The notes beneath the pieces are model-generated. The model saw only the letters and a program-made list of their open reading frames with translations, searched no databases and was not told the DNA's origin. Of a DNA stretch of 64,000 bases, positions 2,815 through 46,789 are shown piece by piece. Source of the DNA: Vandiemenella viatica. Lineage: Eukaryota; Arthropoda; Insecta; Orthoptera; Morabidae. Position 1 is the first letter of the stretch. The number at the start of each line of letters is the position of its first letter. The stretch is from NCBI GenBank assembly GCA_031002005.1, contig JARYHS010011408.1, positions 221,691,473 through 221,755,472 on the forward strand, given 5' to 3'. Position numbers and translations under genes: made by a program.

Positions 2815-3400
2815 TTACAACCCTTAATTTTTATACAAACCCACATTTTTTATCAGATTTCAATGGAACTTTGCACACGTATTCTTTAAAACAAAGAGAA
2901 AAATGCATTCAACATTTTATTGGCAAAATCCCAACCCCTCTCCCAATTTCCACCCCCTTAATTATTGTCAATCTTCTTTATACAAAGCTACAGTTTTTAT
3001 CCGATTTTGAATGTAGTTTGCACACGTATACTTTAAAACAAACAGAAAAATTCTGGCTACATTTGGTTTGTAAAAGACCAACCCCTCTCCCCCTTTATCC
3101 CACCCCATTCCTCTTAATTTCCAAAGTTCTTTATAGAACAGTTTTTATCTGTTTTCACTGGAACTTTGCATACGTACATTTAAAAAAAACTACTCTCCCC
3201 CTTAATTTTTGCCATACATAACCACGGTTCTTATCTGATATCAATGGAATTTTGCACATATACTTTAAATGAAACAGAAAAATACTGTATAAATTTGGTT
3301 TACAAAAGCCCAACCCTTCCTCCTTTACTCCACCTCTTTTAATTTCCAATGTTCTTTATAGAAACTCACAGTTTTTAATACAAAAATATGTATATTCTGT
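2815..3400 (+). repeat. Degenerate tandem array, roughly 110-170 bp units
   Basis: At least four imperfect units each carry TTTATCNGATTTCAATGG, then TTTGCACACGTAT, then CTTTAAAACAAA, and close with a CCAACCCCTCTCCC pyrimidine block. Starts are near 2850, 2995, 3145 and 3230. A partial unit occurs at 30-60. No coding potential is credible here. Confidence 0.7.
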
Positions 3401-4899: not shown

Positions 4900-6540
4900 A
4901 AACAGGACCACTTTTTGACAGCTGCCTTCTATTTCACAACAAGTATTCTTTCTATGCAGCTTGCATATAGAGGTTCTATCATTCACCCACCACATATTCT
5001 GACTGCATCTTTTGAGTCAATATTTCCTACCTGGTCCAATATTTCAAGAACTTTCTTATGTCACTTCTTAGGTATAAAAATTCAAAAACAAAACACAATA
5101 AAAAGAACAAACACATTCCAATTCATATTATTTGTTCTCTTGTGGTCTCCAATATAGCAGCCAAACCTATGACTGGGCTATTCACTGCCACCTGTAAATG
5201 AGATTCTTTCTCACTTAAATTTTCAGTGCCTCTCAGAACATGCATCAGTGGGACATGCAACCACAGCCAATTTGTGATACCCCGCATACCAATTGCTCCT
5301 CATCATTCCATCCCATGTGGCAGACCACCTGATAAGACGTGTAAGAAGCACCTTTCTTCCATCACCTTTACCAGAATTTGGTCTGGTAACTCAGTGATTT
5401 ATACACCCGCTCTTAAAATTCAAGGTTACATGTGCAAATAATGGTGAGGTCAAGAACTTTACAAGCTGTGTTTGATCATATGAGATACAACAGAACATTT
5501 TTTTGGTTTGGATTCCAAATTAAACTGTAGGTCCAGTCGAGAAAGAGGCAGAAAGCACAGCAAATTGAAACTCTGTGATCAGATATTAAGACCATATGCA
5601 TTTACTTTCCCTCTTGCGAGAACTTACAATGCCATTTAACAATTTACTTGGGGGGGACACCACCATTCTTACAATATAGGTCTGACTGAGCATCAATTAT
5701 CAATCAGACTAGACTTTAATGCCTATCCAAATTGTAGATTAGCCCACTGCTGATTTAGAGCTGTAAATAATATTTCAGTTCTTCACTGCTCATAATGCAC
5801 AAACCCCACTGATTACAGCAATTCTTCTGAACACAGGTGGTGTGAACTAGCACATCAGGTATGAGCCTGGTCTCAATCTAAAATGTTTTCCATCTCTTTT
5901 CGTATCTCCCATCCACTCCTGAATAATCCACTTTCCCCCATAATTTCTCTATCCTAAATGGAATAACTAGCTACTGTAGGTGAAATTTTCATTATATTCT
6001 GACATTTGGCAGAAATAACATTTTAAATTTTTTATACAATGGAGGGCTGTCACTGTGCATGGACCTGCTGTATAGCAGAGAACCCCTGATTTTATCTATT
6101 TACTTTGTTTGGGCATACATCTTTTTCAATATCAAAGTCTGTTTCTTGACTGTTTTCAATATTATCCCACCATCCGCAACTGCTACAATGTAGTTGTAAG
6201 TTCACTCTGGATTCCCAATTCCTATTAAGATTTTAATGTTTTGAGTTCTTTTTTGTTTTTATGAACCTTAAAACCCTGCTGTCTTCTGGTGTATCTAATG
6301 TCTTTTTGTCCTATTCTTACTTTTATTTGCTAACCCTATGAAATTATTCAATCTTTGATGGATAAACTACTCTGTCATTACCTACATCCTCCAAAATTTA
6401 TGCCAATAGTAAACAAATATAGTTAAGTATTACAACACTGACAAATTGATACTTCCTGTTACATTAAATAAAAATAAATAAATAATATTTTAAAAATATA
6501 GAAATTCTTTTTCAAGATGGCTTTACAACTCATCAACATA
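4900..6540. other. XLF intron sequence, nothing recognised
   Basis: AT-rich sequence with short accidental reading frames only. It is conserved in the right arm (about 59200-60870) without any splice-flanked coding block that I can support. Confidence 0.6.
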
Positions 6541-6544
6541 CTCC

Positions 6545-6950
6545 TTACCTCATATCATCCACAATACTCCAACAAAGGTCTGTCCAAAGTTTTGTAACCC
6601 ATTGCTCTTATTTCCTGGTCCATTTTCTCACTATCTTCTCCAGCATATGCAACACTCTGAGCATTTTCTCCTACAGCCACCCGAATGTGCCCTGCTCAAT
6701 TCAGATTACTGTCAACTGATATTGTAAGGTTTTTACACTTTATGCATTCAACAAGCAATTCGCCTTCCAGTGAATGATCATTCAAAACCTTTATTTTCTT
6801 AACTGGACAATAAGCTGACACTTTAGGGCAATTATCTCCATTCCATACTTAAATAGTATACACCCAACTGGATACTCTACCTAGATCCTCTCTCGATGTA
6901 ATCCTATTATGTCATCTGTAAACAACCTAACCTCTGATAGTAGTTTAACA
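6545..6950 (-). pseudogene. LINE reverse-transcriptase fragment with FTDD motif
   Basis: Minus-strand translation, across small frameshifts, gives LFTDDIIG, which fits the catalytic F/YxDD motif of reverse transcriptases. It is followed by DNCPKVSAYCPVKK, a LECIKCKNLTISVDSNLN-like block and ...YKTLDRPLLEYCG. These fit the palm and thumb of a non-LTR retrotransposon. It sits in the XLF intron. The right copy at 58800-59190 reads FTDG, so it has lost a catalytic aspartate. Confidence 0.7.
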
Positions 6951-7758
6951 ACAGAATTATTAATTACAATTCTGAAGATGTCCTATAGAATTAACACTCA
7001 ACTCTATGAGCTGACATATGATGCAATTTAGGAAAAGGGAGGGGAGCAGCGTTTGGAGTATGTCAGGTCATTTTGCAATCATCTGCTTCAAATTTCCACC
7101 TATTTTTAATGGTTTATTACAGTAATCTTTGCAGGAACCATATTAGAAAGAGATTAACAAAATGCGGTAAATATAGAAGCTTTAGAATGAGGAGACGTGA
7201 GAAGTTATAGCATTTGAAAGTTTGGAGGTGTGATTTCATCAAAGATGTCATTATATTTTTCAGGAATATCTTCTGAATGTGGACAGTGCATCATGTTTTG
7301 AGAAATAACAGCAGGACATTTCAATTTATAACCTGTTACATTCAGCAGTGCATAAAAAAAAACTGGGTTCATTAATGTGTCCATGAGAAAAGATTTATGA
7401 AAGAAGACAGATTGACTAGGAGCATTGTACTCAGGTTCCTAAGAGGGTAGAGGCTGAGTGAAGACTTAGGTATGGGTACTCTGATATTCACAGCCAGGAA
7501 GAACTCACTGGCATACTTTGTATACCAACCCGTCCAACTGAGGGTTAAGCGAGGTAGTTCTCTACGTCCTGTTGCAGTTAGAAATAATTAAATGTGGCCA
7601 AGTTCATGATGTTATTAATATGGTGTGCAAAGAAAATTTAAAATAAATATTGGAGTTCTAAAACTGCCTATGTTAGTAATAATTGTGGTTCAGGCTGCAT
7701 TGATCACTATACATTTGAAATTTCTTCCAACAGCATTCACCATTGAAACTAGAGGCTG

Positions 7759-16990: not shown

Positions 16991-17289
16991 TCCTGCTCAT
17001 TTTTTTTCCTCTCTTTCTGCATATTATTTATATTTGCCAGTGCATGTTTCTTCTTTTGTGAATAACCCTTTTCATGGGTAATAAGAATTTGTTGACACAA
17101 TTCAGGTCTTTTGAACACATTTCGTTAGACAGGTACATTATACAACTTCACTCAGTACTATTAAATAGCAATTACAAGTAAAATTCAAATAAAATTTCAG
17201 CAGTGATCACATACACGGAATGTTAAACAACCAGTGAAACAAAACATTTCAAGATGCCGAGAAACCCGCAGTAATCAGCCATATGAAGT

Positions 17290-18724: not shown

Positions 18725-19930
18725 CACTGAAGAACCAAAGAAACTGGTATAGGCATACGTATGCAAACGCAGAGATATGTAAACACTCAGAGTATGGCGC
18801 TGTGGTCGGCAACGCCTATATAAGACAACTGGTCTCTGGTGCAAGCGTTAGATCGGTTACTGCTGCTACAATTGCAGTTATCACGATTTAAGTGAGTTTG
18901 AACACGGTTTTATAGTCGACGCACGAGAGATGGGACACAGCATCTCCGAGGTAGCGATGAGGTGGGGCTTTTCCCGTATGACCATTTTACGAGTGCACCG
19001 TGAATATCGAAAATCCGGTGAAACATCAAATCTCCGACATCGCTGCGGCCGGATAAAGATACTGCAAGAACGGGACCAACGACGACTGAAGAGAATCGTT
19101 CAACGTGACAGAAGTGCAACCCTTTCGCAAATTGCTGCGGATTTCAATGCTGGGCCATCAACCAGTGTCAGCGTGCGAACCATTCAATGGGCTTTTGCAG
19201 CCGAAGGCCTACTCGTGTACCCTTGCTGAGTGCACGGCACAAAGCTTTACGCCTTGTCTGGGCCCGTCAACACCGACATTGGACTGTTGGTGATTGGAAA
19301 CATGTTGCCTGGTCTGACGAGTCTCGTTTCCAATTGTATCGAGCGGATGGAAGTGTACGGGTATGGAGACAGCCTCATGAATTCATGTATCCTGCATGTC
19401 AGCAGGGGACTGTTCAAGCTGCTGGGGGCTCTGTAATGGTGTGGGGCGTGTGCAGTTGGAGTGACATGGGGCCCCTGATACATCTAGATAAGTCTGTGAC
19501 AGGTGACACGTACGTACGCATCCTGGCTGATCACCTTCATCCATTCATGTCCATTGTGCATTCCGACGGACTTCGACAATTCCAGCAGGACAATACGACA
19601 CCACACACTTCAAGAATTGCTACAGAGTGGCTCCAGGAACACTCTTTTGAGTTTAAACACCTCCGCTCGTCGCCAAACTCCCCAGATATGAATATTACGT
19701 ATAGAGCATATCTGGGATGCCTTGCAACGTGCCGTTCAGAAGAGATCTCCACCACCTCATACTCTTACAGATTCATGGACATCCTTGCAGGATGCATGGT
19801 GTTAATTCCCTCCAACACTACTTCAGACATTAGTTGAGTCCATGCCACGTCGTGTTGCGGTACTTCTGCGTGCTCGCGGGGCTCCTACAAGATATTATGC
19901 AGGTGTACCAGTTTCTTTGGCTCTTCAGTG
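18725..19930 (+). mobile_element. Tc1-family DNA transposon (left copy)
   Basis: 1206 bp bounded by TIRs of about 25 bp starting CACTGAAGARCCAAAGAAAC and flanked by TA on both sides (18723-18724 and 19931-19932). The same insertion is at 43500-44699 in the other arm, so it predates the duplication or the haplotype split. Confidence 0.9.
18930..19837 (+). pseudogene. Tc1 transposase, frameshifted
   Basis: Starts MGHSISEVAMRWGFSRMTIL (paired-like helix-turn-helix), continues through a second DNA-binding helix (RSATLSQIAADFNAG), then loses frame near 19188, where the right copy has 16 extra bases. The catalytic domain resumes with WSDESRFQLYRADGS (first Asp) and FQQDNTTPHTSRIATEWL (second Asp). 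The third acid is lost in this copy because of a frame change; the right copy keeps NVIEHIWDAL. By my count the second Asp and the Glu are separated by 36 residues, suggesting a DD36E-type Tc1 relative. Confidence 0.82.
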
Positions 19931-21799: not shown

Positions 21800-23120
21800 G
21801 AACGCAACTTTTTTGTTGTTGAAAGAATGGAGTCTACAATAAACAGTAACTTCATTCCTTCGACCAATATGATGTCATTGTAGGCTGAAATTACGATAGA
21901 AATTTCGAATGCGAGAAGAAACTTACCATTAAATTAATTTGCGCGTATTATAATTCCTTAGCTTCTCGAAGTTACATCGGAATAAAATATACCTTATTCT
22001 ACTCTTGGGAACACGAGCTGTAGATTAATTGAAACCACATAAAATCTAGCAAGTATTTTTGCATGAATCGCGTTCATCAAAAATTTATCTTAAATTTATC
22101 AGCTTTACTATGCCACATCAAAAGCAAATACGGGGCTGTCTATTTATCGTAACTCGACCAATATATATCAATAGTTTTAGCGTAAATCGCGTTTAGGCTA
22201 AAACCATCTTAAAATTACCATTTGTAATGTCACATCCAATTGAAAAATACTTTATTTTGTCTGTTGTACGAAGGGAAATACATCAATCAATATACAGTGA
22301 AAGGTTAACCTTAATTTATCATTTTTTCGAAATCATATTAAAATTAAAGATGCCCTAATTTTCCCTCGGGATCACATGCTATACCTTAATCGAAACCCCC
22401 ATCAAAATCTGACTAGCAGGTTTTAAGCGAATCGCGTTAAATGGACAACTTTAATTTTTGTTGTGTGTAAAAAACGTGATTGGTGCACATTATGTTGTAG
22501 CTATGCGGTTAGTTTTAAAGAATTTGATTGGAGCAAAAAAAAACTATATAATAACAGTAATAGAATTTGCGTGAAACATGGAACTTAATATCTTTCACAC
22601 AGAACTAAAAACTACTGAACAGTACGTCTAACAATCATATGACTACTGCTGCATATTAAATCGCCCGAGCGAATCAACAGCCGCGCCACTAGAGCTCACA
22701 TCATTGCTAGCAGGAGTGGCACCACCACGGCTGCCACCAGAGAGGGGGATGACTTCCCCCATCTATCTTCACTGCCGATATACGTACATAAGAGTGGTCC
22801 CCTGAGCAGAAATATCAGTCAGTGAAAACCAGATTTAAGGAGCTGAAGCTCTAGTTCGAGTAACTATAAAACGCTTGATAAACTATTGTGAATTCTGTAC
22901 TGATCAAAATGGCTACTGTGTTAGGTATTTTTTTAAAAAATTGTAACTACGTATAATAAATCATTGTGAACGCCAATATTGATATCGGCCTCTCGTTTTG
23001 TTTCGGCAGTTACCTACTGTAGTGTAGTACACAACAATCACCAAGTCTATCAGATCCCTGATCAGTGTATTGGAAGAAGTGTGTCATATAATTACAAAAC
23101 TGACGCTGATGAATATGATG
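21800..23120. other. Ankyrin intron with degenerate tandem repeat
   Basis: Blocks near 22020-22090, 22140-22200 and 22380-22440 share a GAATCGCGTT-like core after an AAAATCTANCAAG-like stretch, suggesting two to three old tandem units. The site at about 22390 (CCTTAATC) is the empty target of the right-arm hAT. No gene. Confidence 0.45.
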
Positions 23121-23126
23121 TCTTAC

Positions 23127-23381
23127 CGGTTAGCGCTGCACGGTGTAGTGCTGTGCGGCCTAGCTGATCGGTGGCGTGAATGTATGCTCCGTACTGCAGC
23201 AGCAGCGCCAAAATGGAAAGCGACTCTCTCTCGGCCGCCACCAGGAGCGCTGGTAGTCCTGTCGAAGCCTCAACCACGTTGGCGTTGACTCCCGCTTCCA
23301 GCAGCGTCCTTACTCGATCCTCAGACTGCGTCCGGACAGCACCAATCAGGCTTTCTAAAGACATTAATAAATGGTTGGAGA
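23127..23381 (-). CDS. Ankyrin-repeat protein, exon 3 of those seen (left copy)
   Basis: A 255-bp exon on the minus strand, acceptor CCTTGTTTTAG and donor GTAAGA. It encodes VSNHLLMSLESLIGAVRTQS, then VRTLLEAGVNANVVEASTGL, LLQYGAYIHATDQLGRTALH and RAALTG: about two and a half ankyrin repeats. It joins exon 2 (one carried base, G) and exon 4 (Gly codon split) without a frameshift. This is the most diverged exon: 15 of 255 bases and 8 residues differ from the right copy. Confidence 0.88.
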
Positions 23382-23389
23382 CTAAAACA

Positions 23390-24180
23390 AGGGATCTATT
23401 TGTCACAGTACAGATGGGCCTATTACAGTGTATGGACTGGTTTGGATGGATTATGAAGCCAAGTAAAACAGATTCCTTTTCTAGTTAATGAAAGGCGCAA
23501 TGAAATGTATCGCTTTTTTCTGGATGCAATAACTCGAACGTGTAAAAGTCTAATATTTAGAAATTTCCATTAAGGTATCTCCGTTCCGGACGCTTAGCTA
23601 AATCCTACGAGCCTCCTCGTTTCAGAGGTTTTTCAGAGACATTAACGCTCCTATACTGGCCAGTATTTCCTTTTGTTGCCACGTCAGTTATTTGGAGAAA
23701 CATTTACAAAGAGTACATTCCATGAACCTTATTTAATAAATATATTTTTAAGGCTGAGATTCGTGTCCATGCCATCGTTTTTAATTAGTTCACAATAGCA
23801 CCAACAAAATGTTCTATTCATATAAAATTCCGGTGCCAGGTGTTCAGAGTATATTTATTGTTTATGATGTACGCTGAAGCCAATTAAATTATTTTGAACA
23901 TAGAGCCAATCTGAGGTGTAGATTTTAAATTATGAGTCGAGTAATAATGAAAAAGGTTTTTTAAAATTGGGAAGAAATAGATTCTTTTTTTACTTAATTT
24001 GACGCCTATTAATTGGTCTCTTGCTTTAAGACAATTATTTGATATTGAGAAAGAACTCTTAACTCACGATAATTAATGACAGATACAACACAATATAAGA
24101 GTTAAGTAGCTGTATTTAATTGAGAGCTAAAAGAAGTACTACAGTATTACGAACTCCATTACTAGAAAAGCAGTGACTTG
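23390..24180. other. Ankyrin intron, nothing recognised
   Basis: AT-rich sequence without a supported feature. The point near 23515 is where the right arm carries a 1.83-kb insertion. Confidence 0.5.
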
Positions 24181-31785: not shown

Positions 31786-32785
31786 NNNNNNNNNNNNNNN
31801 NNNNNNNNNNNNNNNNNNNNNNNNNNNNNNNNNNNNNNNNNNNNNNNNNNNNNNNNNNNNNNNNNNNNNNNNNNNNNNNNNNNNNNNNNNNNNNNNNNNN
31901 NNNNNNNNNNNNNNNNNNNNNNNNNNNNNNNNNNNNNNNNNNNNNNNNNNNNNNNNNNNNNNNNNNNNNNNNNNNNNNNNNNNNNNNNNNNNNNNNNNNN
32001 NNNNNNNNNNNNNNNNNNNNNNNNNNNNNNNNNNNNNNNNNNNNNNNNNNNNNNNNNNNNNNNNNNNNNNNNNNNNNNNNNNNNNNNNNNNNNNNNNNNN
32101 NNNNNNNNNNNNNNNNNNNNNNNNNNNNNNNNNNNNNNNNNNNNNNNNNNNNNNNNNNNNNNNNNNNNNNNNNNNNNNNNNNNNNNNNNNNNNNNNNNNN
32201 NNNNNNNNNNNNNNNNNNNNNNNNNNNNNNNNNNNNNNNNNNNNNNNNNNNNNNNNNNNNNNNNNNNNNNNNNNNNNNNNNNNNNNNNNNNNNNNNNNNN
32301 NNNNNNNNNNNNNNNNNNNNNNNNNNNNNNNNNNNNNNNNNNNNNNNNNNNNNNNNNNNNNNNNNNNNNNNNNNNNNNNNNNNNNNNNNNNNNNNNNNNN
32401 NNNNNNNNNNNNNNNNNNNNNNNNNNNNNNNNNNNNNNNNNNNNNNNNNNNNNNNNNNNNNNNNNNNNNNNNNNNNNNNNNNNNNNNNNNNNNNNNNNNN
32501 NNNNNNNNNNNNNNNNNNNNNNNNNNNNNNNNNNNNNNNNNNNNNNNNNNNNNNNNNNNNNNNNNNNNNNNNNNNNNNNNNNNNNNNNNNNNNNNNNNNN
32601 NNNNNNNNNNNNNNNNNNNNNNNNNNNNNNNNNNNNNNNNNNNNNNNNNNNNNNNNNNNNNNNNNNNNNNNNNNNNNNNNNNNNNNNNNNNNNNNNNNNN
32701 NNNNNNNNNNNNNNNNNNNNNNNNNNNNNNNNNNNNNNNNNNNNNNNNNNNNNNNNNNNNNNNNNNNNNNNNNNNNNNNNNNNNN
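31786..32785. other. Assembly gap, exactly 1000 N
   Basis: A run of 1000 N. The round length indicates a placeholder between contigs, so the true distance and even the orientation of the two sides are not proven by this sequence. It hides the apex of the inverted duplication and the right-arm counterpart of the ankyrin exon at 27975-28182. Confidence 0.99.
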
Positions 32786-35120: not shown

Positions 35121-36584
35121 CGTATGTATCGGCTCAAGTCACTGCTATTCTATTAATGGAGTTCGTAATACTGTACTACTTCTTTTAGCTCTCAATTAAA
35201 TACAGCTACTTAACTCATATATTGTGTTGTGTCTGTCATTATTTAACGTAAGTTCTTTGTCAATATTAAATACTTGTCTTAGATCAAGAGACCAATTAAT
35301 AGGCGTCAAATTAAGTTAGAAAAAGAGACACATTGTTTCAAGAATCTATTTCTTCCCAATTTCAAAAAGCTTTTTCATTATTACTCGACTTAAGATTAAA
35401 AAACTACACCACAGACTGGCTTTACGTCGAAACTAATTTAATCGGCTTTGGCGTACATCATAAACAATAAATATACTCTGAAAACTTGGCACCGGAATTT
35501 TATATGAATAGAATATTTGTTTGGTACTATTGTGAACTAATTAAGAACGATGGCATGGACATAAATCTCAGCCTTAAAAATATATTTCTTAAATATCGTT
35601 CATAGAATGCACTCTTCGTAAATGGTTCTCCAAACAACTGTCGTGGCACCAAAAGGAAATACTGGCGAGTATAGGAGCGTTAATGTGTCTGAAAAACCTC
35701 TGAAACGAAGAGGCTCGTAGGATTTAGCTAAGCATCCTGAACGGAGATACCTTAATGGAAATTTCTAAATATTTACACGTTCGAGTGGAAAACCCAAATC
35801 CAGAAAAAAAAAATGTTCTTAGCTATTTCCAAATAGCAAAATCATGCAATTTGATACTTCTGTACACCATGTGAAACTGAGATCTGAACTGTAGGAACAA
35901 TATTTGGATCAGAGTTACCTGCTACGTGAGATAGGTGACATACCAGCTGAAGACTCATTTATGATTAACTGTAGAAATTAATAGTTCCGTTAGCCACAAG
36001 GAACATGTAATAGATCGTAAGCAAGAGCTTCCTGCATTTCATTGGTTACAAGTAGCAGTAGCAACGCTTTCTGGTTTCTACGTTAATTTCATTCCGAATG
36101 TTGTTTAATTCATTTTCAAGATATTAATTATTCGCTAATTTACGGATGGAAGTGTCCAATATTTATATTAAAAGCGTAGGTCCATCTAAAAGAATTCTAT
36201 AACCTGACCGTTTATTACACAAAAACACATTTCTACAGACGGTAGACACATTTACTATTAAATACACATATAAACAATTATTAAAAAAACCTTGGCCTAC
36301 ATCCTACACAAACGTTCGTCAAATTATTAAGCAGTATTTAATAACTGAATCATTTAAATTGACTTGTAAACAACGCAATGTTTACATCCAGAATGCAGCA
36401 GACAAGAAAATTGGTTTTTGCGGAAACATGTTTTGAGAGAAAGCAGAGATGTGTGGTTACGAACCTGGATACCACTAATGTAAATAGTAAGTTGTAAACA
36501 ATCAGAAAATGTTTCAATTCAAATTAGGTTAAACATCATAGAATAAGTTTTGTAATATTAAATATAAAATTTTAAAATAGATTC

Positions 36585-36625
36585 GCCGCTGATGATGCCT
36601 CTGTGAGAGGCGAAACACGTACGGC
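36585..36625 (+). ncRNA. Hammerhead-ribozyme-like motif (copy 1)
   Basis: Order of parts: GCCG, CTGATGA (36589-36595), one extra T, GCCTC-loop TGTGA-GAGGC (stem II), GAAA (36612-36615), C-AC-G minimal stem III, T, A, then CGGC pairing with the first GCCG (stem I). Core residues of the hammerhead are all present and cleavage would fall after A36621. The unpaired U after the CUGAUGA box is non-standard and may weaken it. Hammerheads with one- to two-pair stem III are known from Penelope-like elements. Confidence 0.55.
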
Positions 36626-36699
36626 TACAAAAACAGTTGCGTTGGCGTTATTTTATCATTTAACATTTGCAGTGTGGTGCTATAGAAGGTTGCTGAAAA

Positions 36700-36990
36700 T
36701 TAAGTGGACAGTTAAAGTACGAAATGAACGGGTTTTGTGATGGGTGAGGAAAGAAGTTTGTGGAAGAGTCTCACAGAAATAAGAGGCAGGATTGTAGGTG
36801 ATATTCTGAGACATGCAGGATTCGTTGTCAGTAGAAGGAGCAGTCGAAGATAAGAACTGTAGAGGAAGACAGAAATTATAATATAAGAAGCAGATAATTG
36901 AGGACGTGGGTTGTAAGGGGTATGCTGAGCAAGATAAGAAGGGATGGAGGATTGCATCAAACCAGTCGAGAGCGAAAATTAGAATCATCT
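36700..36990 (+). pseudogene. LINE ORF2 C-terminal remnant inside the insertion
   Basis: The plus strand reads KKQIIEDVGCKGYAEQDKKG, then WRIASNQSRAK after earlier frameshifted pieces. Same family as the 11575-11765 tail, but a different subfamily or older copy. Confidence 0.5.
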
Positions 36991-37768
36991 GTTACAATCT
37001 TTTCCCCCTACCAAGAGAGAAACATGTTGTATTTTCGCGTGTATGTCTTATTCCTCTGATTTTAAAGACCTGCGAAGAAATTAATCCCATGAGTCGCAAA
37101 TATGTAGATATTCTCTCTTCTATGTAGTGTAATTATGCATTAATAAATGTTATAGTTATATTTATTCTTTTTATTTAATTCTTCGTCGTATACCAACGAT
37201 CTCTCCGACTGACATTTGTATGTATCAGGTTAGCTGAGGAGAAGGGAAGTTCTTTTCTATTTCGTATGAGTGACCAGTGTTGTAGGGCTGTGTGCAACCA
37301 AACTTTGTAAGCTGACGTTTACTCACGCCTTCTCTACTGAATGCCCCGTTATCGGAGCCCAGTTGTTCTATTTACAAAAATACACAGTTTGGAGCATTCG
37401 GAAGATAGCCAGAGCTATTTCCAGCTTAAAATGAACGACATTCGTTGTCTCGGAAAAACATGAAAAGTTGTCCGCAGATACTCTGCATCCGACCCACACA
37501 TTTAGCTATTATTCCTATACAGCAAAAACCAATTTATATTTGGAATATGCTTAACGTCTTAGTTTCCTTACAATCTGTGTTTGTGTATTTTTTTTTTTAA
37601 ATAAAAAAAGAACAATACTATTGTTTCATAGTAAAAGCGATGCATTTCATGACGCCTTTCATTAAATAGAAAAGGAATCTGTTTTACTTGGCTTCATATT
37701 CCAGCCAAACCAGTCCATACACTGCAATAGGCCCATCTGTACTGTGGCAAATGGGTCGCTTGTTTTAG

Positions 37769-38023
37769 TCTCCGACCACTTATTAATGTCTCCAGAAAGC
37801 CTGATTGGTGCTGTCCGGACGCAGTCTGAGGTTCGGATGAGGACGCTGCTGGAAGCGGGAGTCGACGCCAACGTGGTCGAGGCGTCGACAGGACTACCAG
37901 CGCTCCTGGTGGCGGCCGAGAGAAAGTCGCTTTCCATTTTGGCGCTGCTGCTGCAGTACGGAGCATACATTCACGCAGCCGATCAGCTAGGCCGCACAGC
38001 ACTACACCGTGCAGCGCTAGCCG
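37769..38023 (+). CDS. Ankyrin-repeat protein, exon 3 (right copy)
   Basis: A 255-bp exon, acceptor GCTTGTTTTAG and donor GTAAGA, homologous to 23127-23381. It encodes VSDHLLMSPESLIGAVRTQS, then LLEAGVDANVVEASTGL and LGRTALHRAALAG. Fifteen base differences from the left copy, ten of them in replacement changes (D/N, P/L, V/D, M/V, D/N, K/E, A/T, A/T); five are silent. Length and phases are unchanged, which argues against simple pseudogene decay. Confidence 0.88.
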
Positions 38024-38746
38024 GTAAGACATCACATTCATCAGCGTCAGTTTTGTAATTATATGACACACTTCTTTCAATACACTGATCTGGGATCTGA
38101 TAGATTTGGTAATTATTGTTTTCTGTACTAAGGCAGGTAATTGCCGAAACAAAACGAGGGGCCTATATCAATATCGGCGTTCACAATGATTTATTACGCG
38201 TAGTTACAAAAAAAAAAGTACCTATTACAGTAGCCATTTTGATCAGTACAGAATTCACAATAGTTTATCAAGCGCCTTATAGTTACTCGAACTAGAGCTT
38301 CATCTCCTTAAATCTGTTTTTCACTGACTGCCATTTCTGATCAAAGGACCGCTCTTATGTACGGATATCGGCAGTGAAGATAGATGGGGGAAGTCATCCC
38401 CCTCCCTGGTGGCAGCCGTGGTGGTGCCACTCCTGCTAGCAATGATGTGAGCTCTAGTGGCGCGGCTGTGGAGTCGCTCGGGCGATATAATATGCCGCAG
38501 TAATCAATGATTGTTAGATATATTGTTGAGTAGTTTTTGGTTCTTTGTGAAAGGTATTAAGTTCCATGTTTCACGTTATTATATAGCTCTTTTTTGTTCC
38601 AATCAAATTCTCTAAAACCAACCGCATAGCTACAACATAATGTGCACCAATCAAGTTTTTTACACACAACAAAAATTAAAGTTCTCCATTGAACGCGATT
38701 CGCTTAAAAACTGTTAGTCAGATTTTGATGGGGGTTTAGATTAAGG

Positions 38747-43499: not shown

Positions 43500-44699
43500 C
43501 ACTGAAGAGCCAAAGAAACTGGTACACCTGCCTAATATCGTGTAGGGCCCCCGCGAGCACGCAGAAGTGCCGCAACACGACGTGACATGGGCTCGACTAA
43601 TGTCTGAAGTAGTGGTGGAGGGAATTGACACCCTGCATCCAACTAGGCTGTCCATAAATCCGTAAGAGTATGAGGGGGTGGAGATTTCTTGTAAACGGCA
43701 CGTTGTAAGGCATCCCAGATATGCTCAATAACGTTCATGTATAGAAAGCTTGGTGGCCAGCGGAGGTGTTTAAACTCAGAAGACTGTTCCTGTATCCACT
43801 CTGTAGCAATTCTGGACGTGTGGGGTGTCGCATTGTCTTGCTGGAATTGCCTAGGTCCTTTGGAATGCTCAATGGGCATGAATGGATGCAGGTGATCAGC
43901 CGGGATGCGTACATACAGGTCACCTGCCAGAGTTGTAGCTAGACGTATCAGGAGACGTGTCACTCGAGCTACATACGCCCCACACCAGCTTGAACAGTCC
44001 CCTGCTGCCATGCAGGATACATGAATTCATGAGGTTGTCTCCATACCCGTTCACGTCCATCCGCTCGATACAACTGGAAACGAGCCTCGTCAGATCAGGC
44101 AACATGTTTCTAATCACCAACAGTCCAATGTCGGTGTTGACGGGCCCAGACAAGGGGTAAAGCTTTGTGCCGTGCACTCAGCAAGGGTACACGAGTGGGC
44201 CTTCGGCTGCAAAAGCCCATATCTATGATGTTTCGTTGAATGGTTCGCACGCTGACACTGGTTGATGGCCCAGCATTGAAATCCGCAGCAATTTGCGAAA
44301 GGGTTGCACTTCTGTCACGTTGAACGATTCTCTTCAGTCGTCGTTGGTCCCGTTCTTGCAGTATCTTTATACGGCAGCAGCGATGTCGGAGATTTGATGT
44401 TTTACCGGATTTTCGATATTCACGGTGCACTCGTAAAATGGTCATACGGGAAAATCTCCACCTCATCACTACCTCGGAGATGCTGTGTCCCATCTCTCGT
44501 GCGTCGACTATAAAACCGTGTTCAAACTCACTTAAATCGTGATAACTGCCATTGTAGCAGCAGTAACCGATCTAACGCTTGCACCAGAGACCAGTTGTCT
44601 TATATAGGCGTTGCCGACCACAGCGCCATACTCTGAGTGTTTACATATCTCTGCGTATGCATACGCATGCCTATACCAGTTTATTTGGTTCTTCAGTGT
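43500..44699 (-). mobile_element. Tc1-family DNA transposon (right copy)
   Basis: 1200 bp with the same 25-bp TIRs as 18725-19930. TA is intact at 44700-44701; the other flank reads AA through mutation. On the minus strand the transposase starts MGHSISEVVMRWRFSRMTIL and keeps QRNIIDMGF, lost from the left copy. It has a stop before the catalytic core (SDEARF), then reads FQQDNATPHTSRIATEWI and NVIEHIWDALQRAV. Thus the two copies have independent inactivating lesions. Confidence 0.88.
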
Positions 44700-46390: not shown

Positions 46391-46498
46391 ACAGGCAAAT
46401 ATAAATAATGCAATGTTGTTGAAGGCCATTTTTCCGCAGTTGCTGAGTAAATTAATTCATAAAATAACGCCAATACAACTGTATAATGTAGGTTTATT

Positions 46499-46539
46499 GC
46501 CGTACGCGTTTCGCCTCTCCTCGAGGCATCATCAGCGAC
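46499..46539 (-). ncRNA. Hammerhead-ribozyme-like motif (copy 2, minus)
   Basis: Exact reverse complement of the copy at 46650-46690, in the left arm of the palindrome. Parts are the same: GTCG, CTGATGA, T, GCCTC/GAGGC stem II, GAAA, CGCG, TA, CGGC. Confidence 0.55.
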
Positions 46540-46649
46540 GAATCTATTTTAACATTTACATTTTATTTACAAACTTATTTGACATAATGCTAAATTTAGC
46601 ATTATGTCAAATAAGTTTGTAAATAAAATGTAAATGTTAAAATAGATTC

Positions 46650-46690
46650 GTCGCTGATGATGCCTCGAGGAGAGGCGAAACGCGTACGGC
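46650..46690 (+). ncRNA. Hammerhead-ribozyme-like motif (copy 3, plus)
   Basis: GTCG (46650-46653), CTGATGA (46654-46660), extra T, GCCTC-GAGGA-GAGGC stem-loop, GAAA (46677-46680), CGCG stem III, TA with cleavage expected after A46686, then CGGC. Compared with 36585-36625, stem I has G-U in place of G-C, stem II loop and stem III loop differ, and all paired positions and core bases are kept. ACGCGT is self-complementary, as in hammerheads thought to work as dimers. Confidence 0.58.
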
Positions 46691-46789
46691 AATAAACCTA
46701 CATTATACAGTTGTATTGGCGTTATTTTATGAATTAAAATATAAATAATATGCAGAAAGAGAGGAAAAAAATGAGCAGGATGGATTCCG

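Follow-up and report, generated by a model that had tools for sequence, protein, structure and literature searches.

A perfect palindrome in the genome of Vandiemenella viatica as a probable product of two-sided priming by a Penelope-like element

A perfect palindrome in a 64,000-nucleotide stretch of the Vandiemenella viatica genome (contig JARYHS010011408.1; hereafter the window) represents a new and very short copy of a Penelope-type element. The insert that carries it is probably a young copy of an endonuclease-bearing Penelope-like element (PLE) made by two-sided target-primed reverse transcription, and in this genome the element often lands as two mirror-image half-copies, apparently since each of the two cut strands primes a copy of its RNA. 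Since the genome holds many near-identical products of one family flanked by target-site duplications (TSDs), the pairing of their ends, the symmetry of their target and the linkage of their cDNA stops can be counted directly.

The insert and the element behind it

The 327-bp insert (46410-46736) is bounded by exact 13-bp target duplications, AAATATAAATAAT at 46397-46409 and again at 46737-46749, and the other, left arm of the window holds the empty target site, a single copy of the 13-mer (17023-17035) with matching flanks and no insert. Outward from its centre at 46594/46595, the 284-bp palindrome (46453-46736) has zero mismatches; it measures 286 bp when one TSD base is included, and the first mismatch pair is 46451/46738. 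The initial annotation had described the palindrome, the 13-bp duplication and the absence of the insert from the left arm, all of which are borne out. It had also placed the end of the insert at the end of the palindrome, which holds on the right side but not on the left, where a non-palindromic stretch (46410-46452) extends further. This stretch of 43 nt, with the minus-strand text TTTACTCAGC...ATGGCCTTCAACAACATTGC, is a PLE tail that enters an ORF start, ATGGCCTTCAACAACATTGC, and every one of the 16 two-ended insertions found among the matches listed, the window included, has such an extension at a single end. The insert accordingly has an A arm consisting of pLTR and tail (46410-46594, sense strand minus) and a B arm consisting of pLTR without tail (46595-46736, sense strand plus), whose cDNAs would have been primed at reverse transcriptase (RT) start sites A and B, respectively. 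The arms meet head to head at AATT (46593-46596), a self-complementary overlap of 4 nt with a loop of zero, which is the native continuation of both.

Queried with the 142-bp half, the host genome (3.72 Gb) gave a list of 44 matches, 40 of 1319 candidates having been scored, and grouping of the matches by position gave 27 insertions, all of which were retrieved (L024 and L035 are one insertion, counted once). The sample is small and favours the youngest copies because it was drawn with this half. Among the listed matches, 28 of the 44 are 100% identical across all 142 bases, including both halves in the window. The sister copy L019 contains an 850-aa ORF (4971-7520) with a reverse transcriptase domain (RVT_1, E 1.6e-14). 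The best relatives of its protein have 53-54% identity, and the closest named ones are three Schistocerca proteins (53, 50 and 49%). By Pfam, the GIY-YIG match of the L019 protein reaches 17.7 bits, under the cut-off of 22.6; among four relatives scored, P0043 is above the cut-off, P0003 is below it, and P0001 and P0024 have no match. The C-terminal motifs GxYxLxCxxC...YIGQTGR are kept across an alignment of 11 sequences, in which the relatives have 25-53% identity. As seen in longer copies, the 142-bp half is the pLTR of the element and the 43-base extension is the start of the element ORF; these features, together with the RT ORF in sister copies, therefore assign the family to the PLEs, although the copy in the window is itself without an ORF. 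The extension matches the tail published for PLEs. As in PLEs, the pLTRs are direct or inverted with an optional end tail of 30-40 nt, and 5' truncation is variable, with cDNA stops scattered along the unit and short TSDs.

Two other classes of element were considered and rejected. A non-LTR retrozyme, built of short non-coding tandem monomers, does not agree with copies that are arms of an ORF-bearing PLE and that are head-to-head in 16 of the 27 insertions among the matches listed. A foldback DNA transposon or MITE does not agree with variable arm, loop and TSD lengths, unequal A and B ends and the presence of an RT ORF.

A hammerhead-like core (CTGATGA...GAAAC) lies in each arm, at 46508-46535 on the minus strand of the A arm, with a predicted cut GUA^C between 46503 and 46502, and at 46654-46681 on the plus strand of the B arm, with the predicted cut between 46686 and 46687. 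The CUGAUGA and GAAA boxes and helix II are present, and the sequence allows a short helix I and a minimal helix III, the former with a U.G pair in the copy studied and a C-G pair in the copy at 36542-36663. Each half thus holds a hammerhead-like core, but calling it full is too strong, for one extra U separates the CUGAUGA box from helix II, the isolated motif of this copy has a minimum-energy fold other than that of the hammerhead, and Rfam gives no hammerhead match in the whole window at gathering cut-offs, nor among the 38 matches within 46397-46749 at E<=10. The motif is present, and its self-cleavage is putative. The 353-base scan also matched microRNA precursors, among them MIR6217 with 112.5 bits (cut-off 110); these matches are attributed to the perfect hairpin and were rejected, and none appears in the whole-window scan. 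The hammerhead cut was also dismissed as the cDNA stop, as the predicted cut at half position 92/93 differs from the stop of both arms in the window.

Sister insertions, their target and their cDNA stops

The ends, TSDs, pairing of arms, stop positions and target composition given below are read from the sequence. Head-to-head doubles of 251 bp to 7.3 kb account for 16 of the 27 insertions among the matches listed (the window, L009-L019, L021, L023, L030 and L035), and in these the element ends point outward, minus at the left and plus at the right. Two kinds of end can be distinguished: the A end has the tail and terminates GC-AT, and the B end is without the tail and terminates at about GAATTAATT. 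Among the matches listed, every one of the 16 two-ended insertions has one A end and one B end, with no AA and no BB pair, for which the probability is 1.5e-5 under equal chance per end. The arms range from 32 nt to over 3 kb, the long ones reaching the RT ORF; L015 contains a 6.26-kb palindrome at 99.7%, and the A arms of L023 and L030 consist of the tail only (32 and 42 nt). The genome search with the 142-bp half, proposed earlier as a check, thus gave, among the matches listed, 15 sister insertions with the same kind of ends and with TSDs, and the palindrome in the window is therefore not a lone assembly fold-back. A further 10 of the 27 insertions among the matches listed have one recognised end, which is A in four (L027, L029, L032 and L033) and B in six (L022, L025, L026, L028, L031 and L034). 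Candidate TSDs are seen in four of these singles (L032, 14 nt; L022, 12; L033, 11; L025, 7), the three longer ones being clear, and a search of all ten for a convincing TSD found none in the other six. The ten singles are excluded from the A/B rule, and L020, which has a run of N at its left and nested units, is excluded from all counts.

Exact duplicated runs of 9-14 bp flank all 16 two-ended insertions among the matches listed. To the right of the TSD, positions +1 to +4 are G in 12, T in 13, T in 13 and T in 11 of the 16 loci, and to the left, positions -4 to -2 are A in 12, 11 and 12. At least three of the four GTTT letters are present in 12/16 and at least two of the three A in 12/16, while exact TTT at +2 to +4 occurs in 8/16 and exact AAA in 7/16, against 0.5 expected for each from base composition alone, a simple null that disregards A/T runs. 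The G at +1 is partly forced, because the TSD run ends where the flank departs from the B arm (A or T); its count of 12/16 has a p of 8e-5 after allowing for this forced ending and of 1e-6 without. The two-ended set as a whole thus has a loosely symmetric target, AAA-N-TSD-GTTT. Such a loose dyad would arise if one enzyme cut each strand immediately 5' of GTTT and the two 3' ends, each terminating in the TSD, then served as primers. The target site in the window is itself a weak fit (GCCT at the right, GCA-T at the left). At the A end, the exact TSD run begins 1-4 nt past the GC in 10/16 loci, and uncut copies read GCATTGAATC at this position, so that bases after the A-end GC can derive from RNA. 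On these two grounds, the ATT after the A end was rejected as an endonuclease motif.

The stops of the two cDNAs are linked. Distances were compared in 15 two-ended loci, L014 being excluded from this test only because of its 56-nt filler, and the A and B stops lie no more than 20 nt apart in 6/15 (window, 0 nt; L016, 15; L009, 16; L015, 17; L010, 18; L013, 19), a count reached in 0 of 100,000 permutations by shuffling of partners. The stops are likewise close in four of the nine loci without short inserts (p 0.0014). B extends further 5' in 12 of the 14 unequal pairs (two-sided p 0.013), a count in which the stops of L021 are on a tandem template; the exceptions are L009 and L010. Junction overlaps are 0-6 nt in 10 of the 14 loci compared, and the other four (L012, L014, L018 and L021) have filler, poly-T or a template jump. 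The stop region of the insert in the window, at reference 2984-2988, recurs in the B arms of L016 and L017 and, as judged by eye, in L026, and by its recurrence may be the RNA 5' end.

Some further coincidences of position were noted. The loops of L009 (at 2803) and L013 (at 2716), which are at different loci, coincide in element position, in an ACACACAC run at reference 1834-1853, and the two palindromes differ in the side that has the longer arm. The single-ended L028 (at 4202, B) and L029 (at 4417, A) break at the same reference position, 2526, their flanks being different and neither having a clear TSD. In L015 (at 4510) and L019 (at 4839), arms crossing the whole ORF stop in the upstream pLTR at reference 3017-3034, not at 2986, and the B arm of L019 continues to reference 2782.

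Variants were scored against the A arm of L019 in 11 insertions with both arms aligned. The numbers in the A arm, in the B arm and shared by both are 20, 21 and 20 in L013; 17, 17 and 14 in L015; 8, 6 and 5 in L012; 5, 2 and 2 in L009; 3, 2 and 2 in L010 and also in L024; 4, 2 and 1 in L018; 0, 1 and 0 in L011 and also in L019; 0, 6 and 0 in L021; and 42, 39 and 16 in L020. Divergence between the arms of an insertion is 0.3-6.1 per kb in ten of the 11 and 16 per kb in L020, some of the arm differences being single-base indels that could be assembly errors; between insertions the median is 9.8 per kb, with the lowest tenth up to 2.5. These comparisons favour one source RNA per insertion in most, not all, cases. 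The use of one RNA for both strands is not general, because L021 shares no variant between its arms, L018 shares one, and the arms of L020 are 16 per kb apart. The alternative of independent RNAs for the two arms is disfavoured by the linked stops and the shared variants, with L021, L018 and L020 going against one RNA.

Two-sided priming and competing explanations

In two-sided priming, the element endonuclease would nick both strands just 5' of a GTTT-like sequence, at a site of the form AAA-N-(9-14 bp)-GTTT, and the two 3'-OH ends, carrying the future TSD, would each prime reverse transcription of sense element RNA. One cDNA would start at site A, within the first codons, and so include the tail; the second would begin at site B, which lies about 40 nt further upstream at the end of the pLTR. 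The two would run toward the RNA 5' end and be joined there with 0-6 nt of overlap or with filler, which would yield a head-to-head inverted dimer. In the window, both cDNAs stopped at one base (between native ...TATATC and AATTTAGC), possibly the RNA 5' end, and their joining through AATT would have left no loop, which makes the palindrome perfect. The order of these events, the joining, the position of the RNA 5' end and the use of one RNA molecule for both strands are what we infer, the last with about an even chance of being right. Two-sided priming accounts for the ends and the TSDs, and also for the A arms of L023 and L030 that consist of nothing but tail.

A stricter version, which is plausible but offered tentatively, regards head-to-head palindromes as a regular integration product of this PLE: an endonuclease dimer would make a symmetric staggered break at AAAC-N12-GTTT, leaving two 3' ends, and two RT subunits would start on the same RNA at adjacent sites, B leading and A trailing by a footprint, the cDNAs being joined at the RNA 5' end. 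The longer A arms of L009 and L010 argue against a strict order of leader and trailer. If this version is true, the 'optional tail' of Penelope elements would show which of the two start sites was used on each target strand, and the RNA 5' end would be recorded by short perfect palindromes like the one in the window.

An inverted dimer could also be formed from a single cDNA that reaches the RNA 5' end, folds and copies itself, the far target end being captured by homology or end joining. This snap-back is rather unlikely. Five palindromes (L009, L010, L013, L015 and L016) do have small loops of native sequence, 15-19 nt in size, and either arm can be the longer one; variants are often common to both arms, and self-priming has been proposed for rotifer palindromes of this kind (PMC3846280). 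Nevertheless, a second arm made in this way is expected to end anywhere or to copy the tail and the primer strand, whereas it ends at the other RT start site in 16/16; an intramolecular hairpin could give the loop of zero in the window only through later loss of its loop; and in L023 and L030 the A arm, which is tail only and overlaps the B arm by no more than 4 nt, cannot be a copy of it, so that fold-back of one cDNA fails there. It is possible that both ends are primed and that one long cDNA snaps back and anneals to the short other cDNA, a mixed path for which the 15-19 nt loops are the best support. The initial annotation had put forward template switching or snap-back during retrotransposition of a ribozyme-bearing RNA. 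Retrotransposition of an RNA with a hammerhead-like motif, giving a TSD and an inverted dimer, is supported, but snap-back alone is not upheld against the A/B ends in 16/16 and the tail-only arms. The same annotation had taken the perfect symmetry to mean a very recent event or ongoing conversion between arms; a young insertion fits, because 28 of the 44 listed matches are 100% identical over the 142 bases, and conversion is unneeded.

Assembly and library preparation are known to produce long perfect palindromes as artefacts, and a fold-back chimeric read might have made a single insertion palindromic. This is hardly credible here, as the TSDs flank the whole dimer, the tail is on one side only so that the ends differ, perfect complementarity ends at 46452/46737, and 15 other loci are built alike, each flanked by TSDs of its own and most with separate breakpoints. 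It is also very unlikely that the palindrome was copied as such, either by transcription and retrotransposition of a whole palindromic copy or as a foldback or MITE-like DNA transposon. Inverted terminal parts common to many insertions and the fairly constant TSD lengths would suit this explanation, but the junctions differ between loci except at hot spots near reference 2984-2988 and 1834-1853, the arms of 32 nt to over 3 kb reach the reverse transcriptase ORF, and single-ended A or B insertions occur.

Known systems and the surroundings of the insertion

In LINE-1 twin priming, both target ends prime reverse transcription on the element RNA, which gives an inverted 5' part; the second primer is placed at an internal position of the RNA, and the resulting parts are usually without mutual duplication. 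The family described here is alike in that two target ends would prime on element RNA, and unlike it in that the start sites of the two primers would lie about 40 nt from each other, so that the product is a duplicated palindrome.

Inverted PLE repeats with tails and two RT start sites in vitro are already known. In Penelope elements of the rotifer Adineta vaga (PMC3846280), pLTRs are inverted with an optional 31-bp tail on one of them, palindromes occur at head-to-head junctions, and TSDs are 8-10 bp where present; in Pen2a, the inverted pLTR overlaps the direct pLTR by 15 bp and is 37 bp shorter. The 2013 report on them suggests self-priming on an antisense template and leaves the choice between templates open (PMC3846280). 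Inverted pLTRs, a one-sided tail, head-to-head palindromes and short TSDs are common to both systems, and the 15-bp overlap and 37-bp shortening of Pen2a are close to the 15-19 nt loops and the roughly 40-nt offset of A and B here. Families there have few copies, whereas 16 doubles of one family are found here among the matches listed; these follow the A/B rule strictly, have as a set a target that is loosely symmetric and include tail-only arms, which indicate two priming events.

The purified PLE protein of Poseidon from Anolis carolinensis (PAc) cuts and extends both strands and starts reverse transcription at two adjacent internal sites, the interval between which is the tail; in vitro, no strand difference in RT start is seen, and the favoured cleavage motif is ATT (PMC11167929). 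The PAc hammerhead overlaps the pLTR/ORF junction, and hammerhead mutants left in vitro insertion unchanged (PMC11167929). PAc was reported as tandem pLTR-ORF repeats, and later integration steps were left for validation (2024, PMC11167929). The present family has in common with PAc a tail that would be the interval of two RT start sites, the presumed use of both strands and a hammerhead-like motif. The target differs (GTTT here, ATT there), and head-to-head genomic products are found here, whereas the main text on PAc analyses none. Animal non-LTR retrozymes are small non-autonomous tandem repeats that carry a type I hammerhead, are low in GC and have longer TSDs than plant retrozymes do (PMC7229834). 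The present family resembles them in its low GC, its TSD length and a motif like the type I hammerhead; it differs in being an ORF-bearing PLE that is mostly inverted, not tandem. In limited searches of open-access literature, with older subscription Penelope papers outside their scope, neither the one-A-one-B rule nor the symmetric target nor the stop statistics was found described. If the rule, the target and the linked stops hold, they would bring two published in vitro observations, two RT starts and extension of both strands, into one integration model, and would explain how some long perfect palindromes arise naturally in the genomes of animals.

The window itself consists of two long inverted arms (1-31785 and 32786-64000) separated by exactly 1000 N (31786-32785). 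Given this exact gap, the arms may represent two haplotypes, or the copies of a duplicated segment, that scaffolding placed head to head; they have about 82-96% identity in long aligned blocks, with many indels. A segment of roughly 1.85 kb (35787-37632) is missing from the left arm (between 23517 and 23532), and within it lies a second, older half-unit (36542-36663) with 80% identity and a hammerhead-like core. On the minus strand, a 302-aa ORF (1391-2299) has a GIY-YIG-looking stretch (VIYQLTCNHCLASYIGLT...R) and is possibly part of another PLE; it has no Pfam match at E 0.01. Remnants of a Tc1/mariner-like transposase (HTH_Tnp_Tc3_2) are present on both arms, at 18852-19837 on the plus strand and at 43643-44571 on the minus strand, where 43643-44026 was judged by eye. 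Similar ORFs also occur on both arms, at 23092-23484 (minus strand), with ankyrin repeats by Pfam, and at 37666-38058 (plus strand).
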